48,536 bases of DNA from Bacillus sp. ISL-55 (GTDB lineage: Bacteria; Bacillota; Bacilli; Bacillales; Cytobacillaceae), in assembly GCF_018613155.1 (NCBI RefSeq), contig NZ_JAGGQU010000053.1, positions 1-48,536 on the forward strand, read 5' to 3'. A program made the position numbers and the translations under genes. Shown in pieces: positions 1 through 16,428 of this stretch (its first letter is position 1; each line of letters opens with the position of its first letter). Below the pieces are notes generated by a model, which saw nothing but the letters and a program-made list of their open reading frames with translations, did no database searches and was not told the origin of the DNA.

Positions 1-375
1 GGTCAGCCCCGACAAGCGCTGGAGGGCCTGACAGTGAAGTCGTTCTTTGACTTCATTGGGCGGACCGAAATCGAAAAGTATAGCCGACTGCCCAGAAACG
101 CAGAAACTGGAGACTCCGACAAAGAAGCGCTTTTTGCTTCTGCCGGCGGAGTTGAAGTTTCGGAGTTTCTAGGAGGCGAAACTAGACAATTCGAAAAGCG
201 GAGGCGACTGCCCAACTCCGACAAGCGCTGGAGGGCCTGACAGTGAAGTCGTTCTTTGACTTCATTGGCAGGACTGAAGCGTCTCGAGGAGTTAGGAGCC
301 GCAGCTAGACAGGCGTCTCGAGGGGCCAGGTGCTGGAGCTAGATTACTTATCCACCGCTAAATAATTTTATAAAC
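1..375 (+). repeat. Mosaic intergenic repeat, copy 1 (left end cut by the window)
   Basis: Belongs to the same family as the copies at 8667, 9587, 32468, 39915, 46388 and 48259. It holds two core modules (each with AGCGCTGGAG followed by the hairpin TGAAGTC-GTTCTTT-GACTTCA) separated by a long module with nested hairpins around AGAAGCGCTTTTTGCTTCT. The tail at 348-356 is TTATCCACC, one base off the DnaA box found in other copies. Short open frames on both strands here (for example 3-224 and 34-240) recur in the other copies and are by-products of the repeat, not genes. Confidence 0.85.
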
Positions 376-3204: not shown

Positions 3205-4002
3205 TTAATCAACAATTCTTTCTGGACAGGAATACACATTAAAAGATTTTCCACGGATAAAACCTACTGCAGTTATATTTAAGTCCTTTGCCAGTTTAAT
3301 AGCAAGATCTGTAGGCGCTGATTTGGACAGGACGATTCCTACCCCAATTTTCGCCGCTTTCAATAATACTTCTGAAGAAATCCTGCCACTAAATACAATG
3401 ATTTTATTTCTTACAGGCACCCTATTCAAAATGCTATATCCATATAACTTATCCAGTGCATTATGTCTTCCAATATCCGTGCGAACCGCAATCATTTCAT
3501 CAGGGGAACAAAGAGCTGCATTATGTACTCCTCCAGTTTCAAGAAACACTTGAGAGCTGTTTTGCATCTGGTTCATCAGGGCAATGCTCTGAGTCGCTGA
3601 AATGGTTGTATTGGACATCGAGGTTTTCGCTGTCCGGGCATCATTATGAAAATAAAATTGACGGCTCTTTCCGCAGCAGGAACCAATAAAGCGTTTTGAA
3701 TAATACTCCTGATTTGTTGTCATGCTCACTTTTAGCATAACGTATGCATAGCCTCTGCTTTCATCGATGCTAAGTGAATGGATGTCATTGTAGGAACGGA
3801 TTACCCCTTCGGATGCCAGAAAACCGACAACCATTTCCTCAAAATGTGTAGGAGTGCAAACCATTGTGGCAAACTCCATGTCATTTACATAAATGGTCAA
3901 TGGGAATTCATTTACGATGACATCCTCTACATCCAGGAATTGTCCGTCCTGATATTTCGTTATCGTATATTTATCACTCATGTTTTCTAACATAGTCTTC
4001 AC
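3205..4002 (-). CDS. fdhD: Formate dehydrogenase accessory sulfurtransferase FdhD
   Basis: FdhD transfers sulfur from a cysteine desulfurase to the molybdenum cofactor, which is needed before the cofactor is active in formate dehydrogenase. The 265-residue protein shows the family blocks GSCCGKS (Cys 109 and 110, the mobile-loop cysteines), TGGVHNAALC, DIGRHNALDK and the C-terminal SGRISSEVLLKAA through GFIRGKSFNVYS. Length is normal. It is divergent from the plus-strand carrier, DUF2294 and oxidoreductase genes, so the 476-base gap between them is a two-way control region. Its presence supports the idea that the oxidoreductase at 6302-8662 is a sulfurated Mo enzyme. Starts at Met 1, 4 or 8 are possible; the first is reported. 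Confidence 0.95.
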   Translation of the reverse strand: MKTMLENMSDKYTITKYQDGQFLDVEDVIVNEFPLTIYVNDMEFATMVCTPTHFEEMVVGFLASEGVIRSYNDIHSLSIDESRGYAYVMLKVSMTTNQEYYSKRFIGSCCGKSRQFYFHNDARTAKTSMSNTTISATQSIALMNQMQNSSQVFLETGGVHNAALCSPDEMIAVRTDIGRHNALDKLYGYSILNRVPVRNKIIVFSGRISSEVLLKAAKIGVGIVLSKSAPTDLAIKLAKDLNITAVGFIRGKSFNVYSCPERIVD

Positions 4003-4145: not shown

Positions 4146-4183
4146 TTTTTCGAAGTTCACTATTCTGTCACATTTTGATTCGA

Positions 4184-4345
4184 GATAGCGATCCTGTCGT
4201 CGGTTAAGGTGTAATAGGAATTGTAAGCGATTAACTGTTGGTCCGTAAGTAGCGAATCCTGCTTAGTACTAACCGTCAATTTTTCTATTAAAGCCCTGAT
4301 TTTTTAGTTCGGGCTTGGAAAGATTGGCGGTTTTCTGTTTCTCGG
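4184..4345 (+). promoter_or_regulatory. Structured leader with tandem hairpins and intrinsic terminator (putative attenuator)
   Basis: Hairpin A is GATAG-CGATC-CTGTC (4184-4198). Hairpin B is TAAGTAG-CGAATC-CTGCTTA (4246-4265). Two bases after B comes ACTAACC, whose AACC starts a long stem: AACCGTCAAT (4271-4280) pairs with ATTGGCGGTT (4323-4332), with inner AAGCCC / GGGCTT, followed by TTTTCTGTTTCTC. The same ACTAACC region can instead pair with CGGTTA (4201-4206) or GTTGGT (4237-4242), which would break the terminator stem. The hairpin B plus terminator arrangement recurs at 6189-6262. I see no match to the Moco, ZTP, tetrahydrofolate or T-box consensus. Confidence 0.6.
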
Positions 4346-4479
4346 GAAAGAACCAGGAACAACAACAGTATACATATCGAGCTTGGAATCAAGATCTTTG
4401 AAGTTTAAGAGATTCCATCTACTTCATTGTTGCGGTCATTGGTTATATGGAAAAACAAACAAAGTAAAGGGGTAAAAGC

Positions 4480-5742
4480 ATGAAAAAAACGAAGAATCGA
4501 TGGCTTATTGCAGCCTCAGCAGTGGGAATCCACATTTCCATTGGGTCTGTATATGCCTGGAGCAACTTTACAAACCCATTAATCGAGGAGTTCGGCTGGA
4601 CTTCCAAGCAAGTACAGTTTACATTCAGCCTTGCCATTTTATTTTTAGGATTATCAGCAGCCTTCCTCGGGCATTTTGTTGAAAAACATGGTCCAAGAAA
4701 AGCAGGACTCCTGGCAGCAGCCTTTTTCGGAGCAGGTATTTTAGGATCAGGACTAGCTGTGAATCTCGGTTCATTGCCATTATTGTATATTACTTATGGT
4801 GTTTTAGGCGGAATAGGCCTGGGAGTCGGTTACATAGCCCCGGTTTCCACTTTGGTAAAATGGTTCCCAGACAGACGCGGACTTGCCACAGGACTTGCCA
4901 TCATGGGGTTCGGTTTTGCGGCAGCGATCAGCAGCCCAATTATGGACACCCTGATTAAATCTGTAGGTACTGCCAATACATTTTACATTCTGGGCGCAGC
5001 TTATTTTATTATTATGACACTATCATCCCTGTACCTTGAAAAGCCACCAGTTGATTGGGCTCCAAAAGGATTCAAGGAAAAAACAGAGTCTGGAAAAGTG
5101 AAAGTCAAGAAAGATCTTTCCCAGCTGACAGCCAATGAAGCAATAAAGACTTCACGTTTTTACTATTTATGGATCATGCTCTTCATCAACGTTACTTGCG
5201 GTATCGCGATCCTCTCAGCTGCAAAACCGTTAGCTGAAGAAAGTATTGGCTTAACTACTGCAGAGGCAGCGGCATTGGTTGGAGTTTTAGGTTTATTCAA
5301 CGGATTTGGCCGGATCGCCTGGGCTTCGATATCTGACTATATCGGCCGTCCTAACACATATACGATTTTCTTCGCGACACAGATTGTATTATTCATGCTG
5401 TTGCCGCATACGAAAGAAGCTTTTCTATTCCAGGTTATGCTTGCGGTAGTTTACACAATGTACGGCGGCGGTTTTGCGGCCATCCCAGCATTCATCGGTG
5501 ACATATTTGGAACAAAACAGCTCGGTGCGATTCACGGATATATCCTGACTGCATGGGCAGCTGCAGGATTGGCTGGACCAATGTTCGCAGCCTGGATGAA
5601 AGACACTACAGGAAGCTACGCAACCAGCTTAACGTTCTTCAGCGGATTGTTCGTTGTTGCGCTGGCGGTGTCCATTTTAATCCGCCGTGACATCAATAAA
5701 CTGCGAAAACAAAATGAAGCTAATGAAAGACTAGCTGGTTAA
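4480..5742 (+). CDS. Oxalate/formate antiporter (OFA) family MFS transporter
   Basis: A 420-residue, 12-helix major facilitator protein of the OxlT-like family, probably exchanging or importing a small carboxylate such as formate or oxalate across the membrane. Family marks are the N-terminal WLIAASAVGIHISIGSVYAW, the GGIGLGVGYIAPVSTLVKWF block and the second-half GRIAWASISDYIGR. The ATG follows AAAGGGG. It lies behind a 330-base structured leader and ahead of DUF2294 and formate-dehydrogenase-like genes, which favours formate or oxalate as substrate, but the family also contains carriers of unknown specificity. C-terminal tail is charged and cytoplasmic. Confidence 0.88.
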   Translation: MKKTKNRWLIAASAVGIHISIGSVYAWSNFTNPLIEEFGWTSKQVQFTFSLAILFLGLSAAFLGHFVEKHGPRKAGLLAAAFFGAGILGSGLAVNLGSLPLLYITYGVLGGIGLGVGYIAPVSTLVKWFPDRRGLATGLAIMGFGFAAAISSPIMDTLIKSVGTANTFYILGAAYFIIMTLSSLYLEKPPVDWAPKGFKEKTESGKVKVKKDLSQLTANEAIKTSRFYYLWIMLFINVTCGIAILSAAKPLAEESIGLTTAEAAALVGVLGLFNGFGRIAWASISDYIGRPNTYTIFFATQIVLFMLLPHTKEAFLFQVMLAVVYTMYGGGFAAIPAFIGDIFGTKQLGAIHGYILTAWAAAGLAGPMFAAWMKDTTGSYATSLTFFSGLFVVALAVSILIRRDINKLRKQNEANERLAG

Positions 5743-5746
5743 TGCT

Positions 5747-5774
5747 TTGTAATTGCCTCTCAATATGGTAAAAT
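5747..5774 (+). promoter_or_regulatory. Possible promoter for the DUF2294 gene
   Basis: TTGTAA (5747-5752), a 16-base spacer, TAAAAT (5769-5774), in the 73-base gap before the DUF2294 start. It could give DUF2294 expression independent of the attenuated upstream leader. Confidence 0.4.
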
Positions 5775-5815
5775 ACCTATCGTCTTAAAACCTGTATAGA
5801 TGACAGGAGGATAAT

Positions 5816-6178
5816 ATGAATAAATACGAGGCAGAATTCAGCAACCTGGTCCGGTCTTTTCGGAAAAAGCATATGGGCAAAGGACCAAGCAAAATAACCA
5901 CTACCTTCTGTAAGAAATGGGCCATCTGTGAAATGGAAGGAAACCTTTCACCTGTAGAGAAATTCATTGCTTCCGCCAATGAAGGGAAACAGGCACTTAG
6001 GGCAGCTAGAACGGAAATGGTTAAAGAAATGTACCGAAAGAATCCTCCAATGGAAATGGAAGAGTTTCTCGGCTGCAAGTTGGTAGAACTTTTTGTAGAT
6101 ATAGATATCGATCGTGATTTTGGAATGTCCATCTTTGTTTTTGAGGAGGACATTCAAGAAAAATTCTGTAACTTATAA
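5816..6178 (+). CDS. DUF2294 family protein
   Basis: A 120-residue soluble protein recognised as the DUF2294 family: N-terminal EAEFSNLVRSFRKKHMGKGP, then ICEMEGNLSPVEKF, then EFLGCKLVELFVDIDIDRDFGMSIFVF. It has no signal peptide or membrane segment. Its biochemical role is unknown to me. The gene has AGGAGG about 6 bases before ATG. It lies between the OFA carrier and the formate-dehydrogenase-like gene, and between two copies of the same RNA hairpin. The charged N-terminal half would allow nucleic-acid binding, but that is a guess. An 8-bp inverted repeat GAATGTCC / GGACATTC lies in its last 20 codons. Confidence 0.85.
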   Translation: MNKYEAEFSNLVRSFRKKHMGKGPSKITTTFCKKWAICEMEGNLSPVEKFIASANEGKQALRAARTEMVKEMYRKNPPMEMEEFLGCKLVELFVDIDIDRDFGMSIFVFEEDIQEKFCNL

Positions 6179-6188
6179 GGTATGGCAC

Positions 6189-6216
6189 TTGGCAGCGAAC
6201 CTGCTAAAGACTAACC
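6189..6216 (+). promoter_or_regulatory. Second copy of the formate-locus RNA hairpin
   Basis: Stem TTGGCAG / CTGCTAA with loop CGAAC (6189-6207), two bases, then ACTAACC (6210-6216). Compared with 4246-4274, the loop core and ACTAACC are the same while stem bases differ in compensating ways (A-U to U-A, A-U to G-U, U-G to C-G). ACTAACC again overlaps the first bases of the following terminator stem. Confidence 0.6.
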
Positions 6217-6264
6217 ACCGTTAAAACCTGGACCATCGGCTTCAGGTTTACGGTGGTTTTTTTA
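6213..6264 (+). terminator. Strong intrinsic terminator between DUF2294 and the oxidoreductase gene
   Basis: Stem AACCACCGTTAAAACCTG (6213-6230) with CAGGTTTACGGTGGTT (6243-6258), followed by seven or more T. It lies only about 40 bases before the oxidoreductase start and no convincing promoter fits after it, so it more likely works as a regulated attenuator than as the end of the operon. Confidence 0.85.
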
Positions 6265-6301: not shown

Positions 6302-8662
6302 TTGGGTAAAACAAAACATCCAGGACCACAGAAAAAAGCGGCAATGCCTGCACCAGAGCACTGGGTAAGCCCGATTCCTTTCGGGCTTGGCAAGGTGAAG
6401 CCGAAACATATAAGAGATACGATGAAGACACTTTGGGACAATCGGGATAACTTTGGTTATGCGACCAACATCCTGACCAAAGGAGTATGTGATGGTTGTG
6501 CCTTAGGTGTCTCTGGTTTGAAAGACCAGACTTTGACAGGCCCGCATATTTGTACGACAAGATTGAATGTCCTCAGACTGAATACTGCCGGGGCAATAAA
6601 GCCTGAAATTCTCCATTCTGATATAGATGAACTACGAAAATATGACAGCACCCAGCTGCGCAAACTGGGACGTATCCCCTATCCAATGATCCGCCGAAAG
6701 GGTGAGCGGAAGTTCTCCCGCATTACCTGGGATGATGCAATGGATATGATTGCAGAGAAAGCGAAAAAGCTGGATCCGAAACAGTACGCTTTTTACCTGA
6801 CTAGCCGCGGGATTACAAACGAATCTTACTATGTAGCCGGAAAAGTCTCCCGCTTTCTTGGTACGAACAATATTGACAATGCAAGCCGGATTTGCCATTC
6901 GCCTTCAAAAACAGCTTTAAAACGCTCGATTGGCGTTGGGGCTTCCACTTCAAATTACCAGGACTGGATAGGCACTGATGTCTTGTTGTTCTGGGGCAGC
7001 GTAGCATCAAACAGTTCACCGGTTTCGTCGAAATATATGCTGGAAGCAAAGAAAAAGGGAACAAAAATCATCGTCGTCAATCCATATAAGGAACCTGCAA
7101 TGGATGAATACTGGATTCCTTCTAATCCAGAATCCGCTCTTTTTGGCACAAAAATCGCCGATGATTTTTACCAGGTCAATATTGGCGGTGACATTGCTTT
7201 CATGCATGGGATCATGAAGCATTGGTTTGAGATGGAGGAAATCAGGCACGGCTCAGCCATCAATCATGTATTTGTTCAAAAGCATGTGAATGGATTTGAG
7301 GAATTGAAAGCGAAGGTCCAGGAGCAAGAATGGGAAGATATTATCGCATCTTCTGGCATTTCTAAAGAACGCATTATCGAGTTGGCGGAACTGCTCGCTA
7401 ACAGCAAGAATGCCGTTTATGCATGGGCACTTGGTTTGACGATGCATTCGTTCGCAACAGACAATATTTCACAAGTGGCGAACCTTGCCTTGCTTCGGGG
7501 ACACCTTGGACGAAAGTACGCAGGCCTGATGCCTTTCCGCGGACACTCCTCTGTTCAAGGAAGCGGTGAAATGGGTGCAGATCCTTTCGTTCTTCCTGGC
7601 GGAGATTTTTACGGGGAAAATATTAAGCGAATTGAGAATCTTTGGGGGTTCGAACTTCCGGACTGGCAAGGTGACATCGTCGGAGTGACTCTCGAAAATA
7701 TTCTTCTTCCTGAAGAGCATGAACGCAAAATCAAAATGTATTACTTATCTGGAGGCAATTTCCTTGAAACGATGCCAGACCCACATTTTGTGGAAAAAGC
7801 ATTGTCTGAACTCGAGATTCGTGTTCATCAGGACATCATCCTGAATACTTCTACCCTTGTTGATGCAAAAGAAGCCGTCATTGTCCTTCCAGCGAAGACT
7901 CGTTATGAACAGGAAGGCGGCGGAACATCCACTTCAACTGAGCGTATGGTTTATTTTAGCCCTGAAATCGAAGGCAATAAGAATCAGGTTGAAGAAGCTC
8001 GTGCTGAATGGAAAATCTACATTGATTTAGCCAAGCGGATCAAGCCTGAAACTGCGCATTTGGTTGATTTTAAAGATGCACAGGAGATACGGAATGAAAT
8101 CGCACTGGCGAATCCTAATTATGATGGAATACAACATCTAAAAAAAGCAGGAGATGTGTTCCAGTGGGGCGGAGCCTGGTTATGTGAAGATGGAATCTGC
8201 CCTACTTCAGATGGAAAAGGAAAGCTGATAACAGTTGATATCCCTGAACTCGGTAAAAAGGAAGGACAATTCATCGTTACCTCCCGCCGGGGAAAGCAAT
8301 TCAACTCCATGGTCTACAATGAAGTCGATCCTCTTAACGGCGCTGGACGCTATGATGTGCTGATGAATGCAGAAGACGCACAGGACCTTAGCATTGCCGA
8401 AGGTGAAGGAATTGTTCTATACAACGGATTCGGTGTCTTCCAGGGCAGAGCTAAATTCGTAGACATTTCACGCGGCAACGTTCAGGTTCATTTTCCAGAA
8501 GGTAACTTCCTGCTTCCAAGGGGACGCTATGAAAAATTCGCAGGTATCCCGGACTACAACATCACAGTCACACTGGAAAAAGCTGATCGCTTCAACGCCA
8601 GAAAAGACGTCGAACACCATGAAAAACGAATTGAGGATGATCAACTTGACGCACCAGCATAA
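6302..8662 (+). CDS. FdhF/YdeP-type molybdopterin oxidoreductase (formate-dehydrogenase-like)
   Basis: A 786-residue cytoplasmic molybdenum enzyme of the FdhF/YdeP family, thought to oxidise formate or a related small substrate; the true substrate of YdeP-type proteins is not firmly known. N-terminal GVCDGCALGV and HICTTRL supply Cys 63, 66 and 84. ASRICHSPS places Cys 198 where formate dehydrogenase H has its Mo-ligating selenocysteine. The central GHLGRKYAGLMPFRGHSSVQ segment and C-terminal molydopterin dinucleotide-binding block (KKEGQFIVTSRRGKQFNSM) are intact. The start is a TTG with GGGAG nine bases upstream. No electron-transfer subunit gene is adjacent, and the usual full four-Cys ferredoxin-type N-terminus is absent. 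fdhD and the OFA carrier nearby support a formate role. Confidence 0.9.
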   Translation: MGKTKHPGPQKKAAMPAPEHWVSPIPFGLGKVKPKHIRDTMKTLWDNRDNFGYATNILTKGVCDGCALGVSGLKDQTLTGPHICTTRLNVLRLNTAGAIKPEILHSDIDELRKYDSTQLRKLGRIPYPMIRRKGERKFSRITWDDAMDMIAEKAKKLDPKQYAFYLTSRGITNESYYVAGKVSRFLGTNNIDNASRICHSPSKTALKRSIGVGASTSNYQDWIGTDVLLFWGSVASNSSPVSSKYMLEAKKKGTKIIVVNPYKEPAMDEYWIPSNPESALFGTKIADDFYQVNIGGDIAFMHGIMKHWFEMEEIRHGSAINHVFVQKHVNGFEELKAKVQEQEWEDIIASSGISKERIIELAELLANSKNAVYAWALGLTMHSFATDNISQVANLALLRGHLGRKYAGLMPFRGHSSVQGSGEMGADPFVLPGGDFYGENIKRIENLWGFELPDWQGDIVGVTLENILLPEEHERKIKMYYLSGGNFLETMPDPHFVEKALSELEIRVHQDIILNTSTLVDAKEAVIVLPAKTRYEQEGGGTSTSTERMVYFSPEIEGNKNQVEEARAEWKIYIDLAKRIKPETAHLVDFKDAQEIRNEIALANPNYDGIQHLKKAGDVFQWGGAWLCEDGICPTSDGKGKLITVDIPELGKKEGQFIVTSRRGKQFNSMVYNEVDPLNGAGRYDVLMNAEDAQDLSIAEGEGIVLYNGFGVFQGRAKFVDISRGNVQVHFPEGNFLLPRGRYEKFAGIPDYNITVTLEKADRFNARKDVEHHEKRIEDDQLDAPA

Positions 8663-8666
8663 GATT

Positions 8667-9091
8667 GAACAAAAAGCGCAAGCGCCTCGTTCAGCCCCGA
8701 CAAGCGCTGGAGGGCAACCCAATGAAGTCGTTCTTTGACTTCAATGGGTTGCTCGAAATCGAAATGCATAGCCGACTGTCCAGAAACGCAGAAACTGGAG
8801 ACTCCGACAAAGAAGCGCTTTTTGCTTCTGCCGGCGGAGTTGAAGTTTCGGAGTTTCTAGGAGGCGACACTAGACAATTCGAAAAGCGGAGGCGACTGCC
8901 CAACCAACTCCGACAAGCGTTGGAGGACCTGACAGTGAAGTCGCTCTTTGACTTCATTGGCAGGACCGAAACGTCTCGAGGAGTTAGGAGCCGCAGCTAG
9001 ACAAGCGACTCGAGGGGTTAGGCGCTGAAGCTGGATTAAGAAAAACACATGCAGTTATCCACACCTAAATAAACTTTATAAATTTCTTTAC
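8667..9091 (+). repeat. Mosaic intergenic repeat, copy 2 (long form)
   Basis: Starts GAACAAAAAGCGCAAGCGCC, contains two core hairpin modules and the long AGAAGCGCTTTTTGCTTCT module, and ends in the A/T-rich tail with perfect DnaA box TTATCCACA at 9055-9063. The terminal segments AGCGCCT...AGCCCC and GGGGTT AGGCGCT are imperfectly complementary. It lies between the oxidoreductase stop and the terminator at 9098. Confidence 0.9.
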
Positions 9092-9586: not shown

Positions 9587-9939
9587 GAACAAAAAGCGCA
9601 AGCGCCTCGTTCAGCCCCGACAAGCGCTGCCCGCCTGAAACGCCACATCGTGTGGCTGGCGGGTCTAGCACGTCCTGTGCCTCGGAGGGACGACCAATGA
9701 AGTCGTTCTTTGACTTCAATGGGCGGCTCGAAATCGAAATGCATAGCCGACTGTCCAGAAACGCAGAAACTGGAGACTCCGACAAAGAAGCGCTTTTTGC
9801 TTCTGCCGGCGGAGTTGAAGTTTCGGAGTTTCTAGGAGGCGACACTAGACAAGCGACTCGAGGGGCTAGGCGCTGGAGCTGGAATAAGAAAACCACAGGC
9901 AGTTATCCACACCTAAATAACTTTATAATTTCCTTAACA
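9587..9939 (+). repeat. Mosaic intergenic repeat, copy 3 (with CCCGCC hairpin module)
   Basis: Same start as copy 2. After ACAAGCGCTG it carries an extra hairpin module, CCCGCC...GCCAC-ATC-GTGGC..GGCGGG type, that is shared only with copy 6, then one core hairpin and the long module. The tail has DnaA box TTATCCACA at 9903-9911 and stops six bases before a terminator. Confidence 0.9.
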
Positions 9940-16207: not shown

Positions 16208-16249
16208 GAATAAATCCATAATAAACGAAAAAACGTCTATCAGAAGATG

Positions 16250-16332
16250 TTCCCTACGCTGGTACTAACCAGATCAGGTTAAAGGGTCAGCATCTATGGA
16301 CACTATCTCAGCCGGCAACACCGGCTCCCCTA
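16250..16332 (-). ncRNA. TPP (THI-box) riboswitch aptamer
   Basis: Read on the minus strand the conserved core is complete: GGGGAGCC, GGCTGAGAT, GACCCTTTAACCTGATCTGG and TACCAGCGTAGGGAA. It precedes the thiamine-precursor uptake operon. When TPP is bound, the terminator at 16176-16207 should form and shut off uptake genes. Confidence 0.97.
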
Positions 16333-16428
16333 CATTTCCTATTCTCCAATTGTCATCTCTACTATAATACAATGTTTTATGATTCGTCTAGAAAAATAAT
16401 CCATTACTTCCTATTGATAAACCTCTCT

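Follow-up and report, generated by a model that had tools for sequence, protein, structure and literature searches.

The leaders of a formate locus in Bacillus sp. ISL-55 carry copies of a structured RNA element which we propose, with a probability of roughly 0.55 judged from comparative sequence evidence, to be cis-acting antiterminators of the formate regulon bound in trans by a DUF2294 protein. Within the window, i.e. the whole stretch of 48,536 nucleotides that was analysed, genes and elements are arranged in the order fdhD (divergent), element I, element II with its terminator, the gene of an MFS carrier, DUF2294, a further element with its terminator, and fdhF (Table 1). A preliminary description of this DNA had placed one copy of the element before an oxalate/formate carrier and another before a formate-dehydrogenase-like gene. 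The latter assignment is borne out by the match of the gene product to the FdhF/YdeP model (810 bits, cut-off 582). The former holds in so far as the copy precedes an MFS carrier, yet this protein stays below the cut-offs of the NCBIfam oxalate/formate models while scoring 465 bits with the L-lactate MFS transporter model (cut-off 320). Interspersed repeats are also present in the window (3-346, 8691-9038 and 9666-9879), one of them immediately 3' of fdhF; they comprise a 214 nt unit occurring three times (93% and 78% identical to the first copy), adjoined by a 135 nt unit occurring twice (91%).

Table 1. Features of the formate locus, given as feature, position in the window, strand, and supporting value or evidence.
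FdhD, formate dehydrogenase sulfurtransferase; divergent neighbour	3205..4002	-	protein family models
Element I, upstream copy in carrier leader	4171..4211	+	-12.5 kcal/mol
Element II (copy 1)	4237..4273	+	covariation, folding, pattern match
Intrinsic terminator, carrier leader; first bases AAC common to P1 of element II	4271..4340	+	-31.0 kcal/mol
MFS carrier, OFA/monocarboxylate type; top NCBIfam model L-lactate MFS transporter	4480..5742	+	
DUF2294 / PF10057 'MpsC' protein, 120 aa; putative RNA-binding antiterminator	5816..6178	+	
Single element before fdhF (copy 2)	6179..6216	+	folding, pattern match, model
Intrinsic terminator before fdhF; begins within element, AACC in common	6213..6263	+	-25.4 kcal/mol
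FdhF/YdeP family molybdopterin oxidoreductase, formate-dehydrogenase-like	6302..8662	+	TIGR01701

Each copy consists of an outer helix, P1, around a hairpin, P2, with a junction between the two and a P2 loop of the form CGNN(N)C. The sequence ACUAACC supplies the 3' arm of P1 and is at the same time the start of an intrinsic terminator. In element II, P1 is formed by GUUGG (4237-4241) and CUAAC (4269-4273), while the strands UAAGUAG (4246-4252) and CUGCUUA (4259-4265) of P2 enclose the loop CGAAUC (4253-4258) and are followed by GU and ACUAACC (4268-4274). In the single element preceding fdhF, GGU (6179-6181) and UGG (6183-6185), separated by one bulged A, pair with CUAACC (6211-6216); here P2 is made up of UUGGCAG (6189-6195), the loop CGAAC (6196-6200) and CUGCUAA (6201-6207), with AG and ACUAACC (6210-6216) following. 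The hairpins, loops, spacers and ACUAACC motifs which had been reported for these two copies thus proved exact to the base. The preliminary description had, however, not noted a third copy, element I, which lies only partly in the stretch it dealt with (starting at 4184), so that the carrier leader holds two copies in tandem and the fdhF leader one. P1 of element I, in which CAUUUUGAU (4171-4179) pairs with GUUAAGGUG (4203-4211), followed by CGA/UCG, is longer than and different from that of element II; its P2 is GAUAG/CUGUC with the loop CGAUC (4189-4193), and no terminator overlaps with this copy. In the 4.5 Mb genome the pattern GCGAAN{0,2}CCTGCN{2,6}ACTAACC occurs at two places only, which are copies 1 and 2, and the reversed control pattern yields no match. 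An operator-like box, GTTCA(C/T)...TG(T/A)NACA, is found 5' of element I (window about 4150-4172 and homologous leaders) in 39 of 70 carrier leaders; it is perhaps the site of a DNA-binding regulator.

Two findings had been named beforehand as speaking against the proposal, absence of conservation at homologous loci and a clear Rfam match; neither arose, and conservation is clearly present. Scanning for relatives of FdhF and taking the best 80 of 263 gave 80 named genome loci, which supplied 20 of the 21 hand-picked carrier-type sequences that make up the sequence model R1. R1 matches 73 among these best 80 of 263 (best match per locus E <=0.13); with matches listed up to an E-value of 5, one of 116 is on the wrong strand. 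Beyond the 73, a simple pattern reveals the element in L062, L077 and L090, and a diverged version is discernible by eye in L048. For L076 only 200 bases are available before the gene, and in L073 and L108 neither R1 nor the simple pattern detects an element. In the FdhF loci the copies precede the carrier gene and fdhF, two of the kinds of gene named in the proposed model search. The element I hairpin is present in 68 of the 70 carrier leaders with a model match versus one of 39 fdhF leaders, hairpins of this type being otherwise rare (326 per 988 kb of fetched sequence on one strand, true copies included).

The element extends to 10 of the 25 genera of the family, as detected by the model R2, and to further families of the class. 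Among 398 genomes of the class R1 finds matches in 20, whereas 47 contain a close DUF2294 gene; at all 26 of the latter loci that were looked at an element is present, as recognised by R2 at E up to 1 (weakest 0.47) and also as hairpins with the loop consensus. Since 18 of these 26 loci belong to genomes without an R1 match, R1 must be regarded as insensitive. The P1 sequences of the class loci include GUUG/CAAC and GUUGAU/AUUAAC. In a few places chemotaxis genes were observed as neighbours: in G084 (L256) an element stands before an ORF with an EAL domain, behind which comes a CheW ORF, another element precedes the gene of a methyl-accepting chemotaxis protein in G009 (L153), and in G164 (L151) an orphan DUF2294 gene lies beside those of CheW and a chemoreceptor. 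Possibly, these neighbourhoods reflect formate taxis or signalling.

Base changes within the helices indicate that it is the structure which has been maintained. In the 21 carrier-type copies of element II (alignment A2) 100% of the cells are paired and 6 double-change cells compare with 1.0 in shuffles, the outer pair of P1 being G-C, A-U or U-A. For element I (A6, 54 of 68 sequences) the corresponding values are 90.0% and 64 versus 22.6, with nine pairs showing double changes. Neither of these alignments was fitted to a model, in contrast to those of the carrier and fdhF types together (A4, 74 distinct sequences; 98.4% paired, 24 versus 4.7) and of the variant element described below (A9; 95.8%, 29 versus 8.3), which, having been fitted to the model structure, lean towards it. 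In all four alignments none of 500 shuffles reaches the observed number of double-change cells or the covariation score, a test inflated by the kinship of the sequences, and every control with slid pairing is lower. A weaker measure is how many pairs show a double change: 27, 56, 6 and 42 of 500 shuffles reach the observed count for element II, both types, element I and the variant, respectively; for element I, sliding by +3 still leaves eight such pairs versus nine unslid. The number of pair types is reached by 38, 8, 0 and 155 of 500 shuffles in the same order. The covariation suspected from two copies thus becomes evident once many sequences are used, and together with the conservation it supports the earlier notion of a selected regulatory RNA on the terminators of the formate locus. 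That the copies merely reflect chance, or one sequence recently duplicated and devoid of RNA function, would agree with the Type B cores, which are near-alike between species; in view of the shuffle results and of the spread over family genera and further class families we consider it very improbable.

Both terminators fold strongly and begin inside ACUAACC, in agreement with the previous reading of AACC as the first part of their stems, and in neither case is any of 200 shuffles equally stable. Of 70 carrier leaders (all carrier-type R1 matches, window included), 68 have a terminator stem that begins at the element, as do 29 of 39 fdhF leaders (39 of the 45 fdhF-type matches, with L035, L042, L044, L047, L053 and L102 left out), compared with 108 of 2000 random stretches; the one wrong-strand match was dropped from these sets. 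Competition between element and terminator probably follows from this anatomy. The overlap, however, amounts to three to four bases only, and in the carrier leader the terminator (-31.0 kcal/mol) is far more stable than the element (-11.5 kcal/mol), so that P1 alone could not win and a bound factor or kinetic folding would be needed. In addition, the predicted minimum-energy fold of the free carrier leader retains P2 and part of P1 alongside the full terminator, which again implies that a switch requires a stabilising partner. The same fold means that the two structures need not exclude each other in this leader, as would be expected if the element stabilised or positioned the terminator, or acted as a signal for mRNA processing or stability, without any antitermination. 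Against such a role, which we regard as improbable, stands the overlap of the 3' arm of P1 with the 5' arm of the terminator in both leaders as well as in the variant group, i.e. an alternative structure having bases in common with an intrinsic terminator, the hallmark of an attenuator.

Searching the whole window with Rfam at gathering scores yields only a TPP riboswitch (window 16234-16341, minus strand) and tRNA, both located elsewhere. Permissive scans of both leaders give rdlD as the best match (E 0.061; 20.1 bits versus a gathering score of 50), which is not credible, and those of six related loci give nothing credible at the element. Hence, the element resembles the riboswitches and T-boxes of Rfam in being a cis-regulatory leader that would switch a terminator, but matches none of them, in keeping with the misfit to Moco, ZTP, THF and T-box motifs noted at the outset. 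Neither this motif nor an involvement of DUF2294 with RNA is described in any paper that our literature searches brought up, and on the present evidence we regard the motif as a genuine attenuation element, conserved at formate genes and absent from Rfam and from that literature. RAT elements, the targets of LicT and SacY, are short hairpins, interrupted by internal loops and stabilised by a protein, which overlap a terminator with their 3' part; compared with their general description the sequence differs here, and the putative binder contains a PF10057 domain only. As far as the available text of PMC3369931 describes them, the target RNAs of ANTAR proteins (EutV, NasR, AmiR) are two small hairpins in tandem, 5' of a terminator or overlapping it, bound by the protein in antitermination, with hexanucleotide loops in which the first base is A and the fourth G. 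The tandem hairpins of the carrier leader, their conserved loop bases and the terminator overlap are reminiscent of this description. In contrast to it, the loops are mostly CGNNC or CGNNNC and sit inside an outer helix, and the fdhF leader holds a single copy. By inspection, no loop in A2 and A6 shows the A1 and G4 so described, there being few exceptions to CGNNC/CGNNNC, and a scan of six window proteins revealed no ANTAR protein. The element may work like an ANTAR target, by analogy, without being classed as one.

The distribution of the element closely follows that of DUF2294. Among 193 genomes of the family the element is found in 80 (R2) and a DUF2294 of the close kind (E up to 1e-55, at least 69% identical) in 79, with both in 78. 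FdhF is present in 85 genomes including all of these 78, so that DUF2294 and FdhF are told apart by few genomes only. Seven family genomes possess FdhF but no close DUF2294: in two (G109, G189) FdhF lies at a contig end which cuts its upstream region, in one (G150, with DUF2294 paralogues only) the element before FdhF has the altered loop UGAAC, and four (G025, G026 and G027 of one genus, and G040) lack the element. Conversely, close DUF2294 occurs in G164 in the absence of both FdhF and the element, while G084 has a canonical element with loop CGAUC and terminator but neither close DUF2294 nor FdhF. In two of the three genomes with a credible match but no close DUF2294 the first C of the loop is missing (UGAAC in G150, UAUAC in G592). 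From these exceptions we conclude that the element tracks DUF2294 somewhat better than FdhF, the independent cases being few. In the class, all 20 genomes with an R1 match contain DUF2294, which is close in 19 and at 46% in one; in G318 a CG-loop element stands alongside a 46% paralogue.

Linkage is not required for this association. Seven named loci (L039, L042, L043, L045, L047, L090, L106) have the element but no adjacent DUF2294; in six of these genomes a DUF2294 gene, 79-85% identical, is located elsewhere, such unlinked genes adjoining fdhD or another carrier gene, whereas in the seventh, L047 of G592 with its UAUAC loop, no PF10057 match is found. In one of the six, G591, the unlinked DUF2294 gene itself has an element upstream, while no element is detected near that of four Cytobacillus-type genomes (L133-L136). 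In G211 elements stand before the carrier gene, fdhD and another formate-dehydrogenase-like gene. DUF2294, if it acts at all, would accordingly have to act in trans. The main rival explanation is a small-molecule riboswitch, in which the element binds formate, the molybdenum cofactor or another metabolite and DUF2294 is just one regulated gene of the pathway. Nearly all elements looked at do adjoin genes of one pathway, loop and junction are conserved, copies occur in tandem in the carrier leader, and in the 78 genomes FdhF co-occurs as completely as DUF2294. On the other hand, the four genomes which retain FdhF without close DUF2294 also lack the element, and an element of some 37 nt, comprising a single hairpin and a short junction, is small for an aptamer. 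We therefore judge a riboswitch unlikely, the more so in the light of the loop variation described below.

The DUF2294 protein of the window scores 113.8 bits with PF10057 (cut-off 23), the sole domain found. It is slightly acidic overall, with basic first 60 residues, and its fold is predicted with confidence (mean pLDDT 92.8); no clear match to this fold was found among known structures, RNA-binding proteins included. A further protein of the same genome, 231 residues long, shows two DUF2294 matches and is encoded beside a DUF3231 gene (G000:C1:189279-189944; L280 1774-2469, minus strand). PF10057 is named after MpsC of Staphylococcus aureus; according to the available text of PMC6689103, deletion of mpsC has no growth phenotype. 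Unlike the S. aureus protein, the diverged or distant DUF2294 paralogues studied here, at 60 loci hand-chosen from the family and class lists, mostly lie with formate genes: FdhD, the carrier or FdhF has a relative at 50 of the loci (E up to 1e-3), and the paralogues accompany several kinds of formate dehydrogenase and FdhD.

These paralogue loci contain a variant of the element. A detector which ignores sequence and requires just P1, a hairpin and a terminator that overlaps finds 31 matches in them versus 6.7 per random pass, and two in 36 kb of the window. The model R3, derived from 13 hand-picked variants (GGAUUGG...AGUAC-N4-6-GUGCU...CUACUCC), yields 33 matches with E up to 0.05, spread over 32 of the 60 loci; 20 of the 32 had not contributed to the model. 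Relative to DUF2294, 16 matches are found downstream in the same orientation and the other 17 on the divergent side; 32 are within 450 nt of the gene (the exception, L197, is at 1,037 nt), and a terminator stem follows 30. When R3 was run against the first group (42 sources), 23 matches with E up to 1 were obtained; a comparison of coordinates places every one of them at a known element, which indicates that the CG-loop and variant kinds are related. When 99 DUF2294 proteins were arranged in a tree, a single clade of 37 rows took up 36 of the 37 rows with a CG loop, and the CG-loop label requires three changes versus 30.2 in shuffles; the tree is a quick one (124 columns, long branches) with loop labels set by hand per locus, 28 rows have no detected element, and neighbouring genes that are co-inherited would also cluster. 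As a single case, two tandem DUF2294 genes in G214 (L203) adjoin leaders with UGACC and UGAA loops, a possible instance of paralogue specialisation.

The apical loop varies by lineage along with the DUF2294 clade, while the pocket of a metabolite ligand should stay constant, and of the two mechanisms originally envisaged protein-dependent antitermination is favoured over a riboswitch. A different trans-acting protein might bind the element, with DUF2294 serving, for instance, as a maturation partner of formate dehydrogenase; the paralogues beside several formate dehydrogenase kinds and FdhD would fit a maturation factor, and G084 has an element without close DUF2294. The joint divergence of loop type and DUF2294 clade, together with the element preceding the unlinked DUF2294 gene of G591, makes another binder appear rather doubtful to us. 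As far as sequences can tell, DUF2294 is the only one of the genes compared that matches the element in both distribution and divergence.

For antitermination by DUF2294, whose direction, binder and signal we infer, the following course can be envisaged. By default, the terminators before the carrier gene and fdhF would form and transcription would mostly stop. A trans-acting factor would clamp P1 and P2 and thereby withhold the CUAAC(C) arm from the base of the terminator stem by the U-tract, enabling the polymerase to read on; with three to four bases in common, the bound element would deny the U-tract an intact stem. This factor would most likely be DUF2294, encoded between both copies and reading the P2 hairpin with its CGNN(N)C loop upon activation, for which formate, the Mo cofactor or the redox state are candidates. 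Two tandem copies before the carrier gene versus one before fdhF could grade the response. The more far-reaching proposal, that DUF2294 represents a new family of RNA-binding antiterminators for the formate dehydrogenase loci of Bacilli, with a loop code and with tandem copies setting the strength, we hold at slightly less than even odds; protein clade and RNA loop having diverged together, the recognition code would be readable, and the natural variation of loop and protein makes its rules testable. If true, this would reveal a control mechanism for formate metabolism across a large bacterial group. A widespread protein family, at present named after an operon for which it apparently does not work, would thereby gain a function, and the small number of known antitermination systems would be joined by a further pair of RNA and protein.
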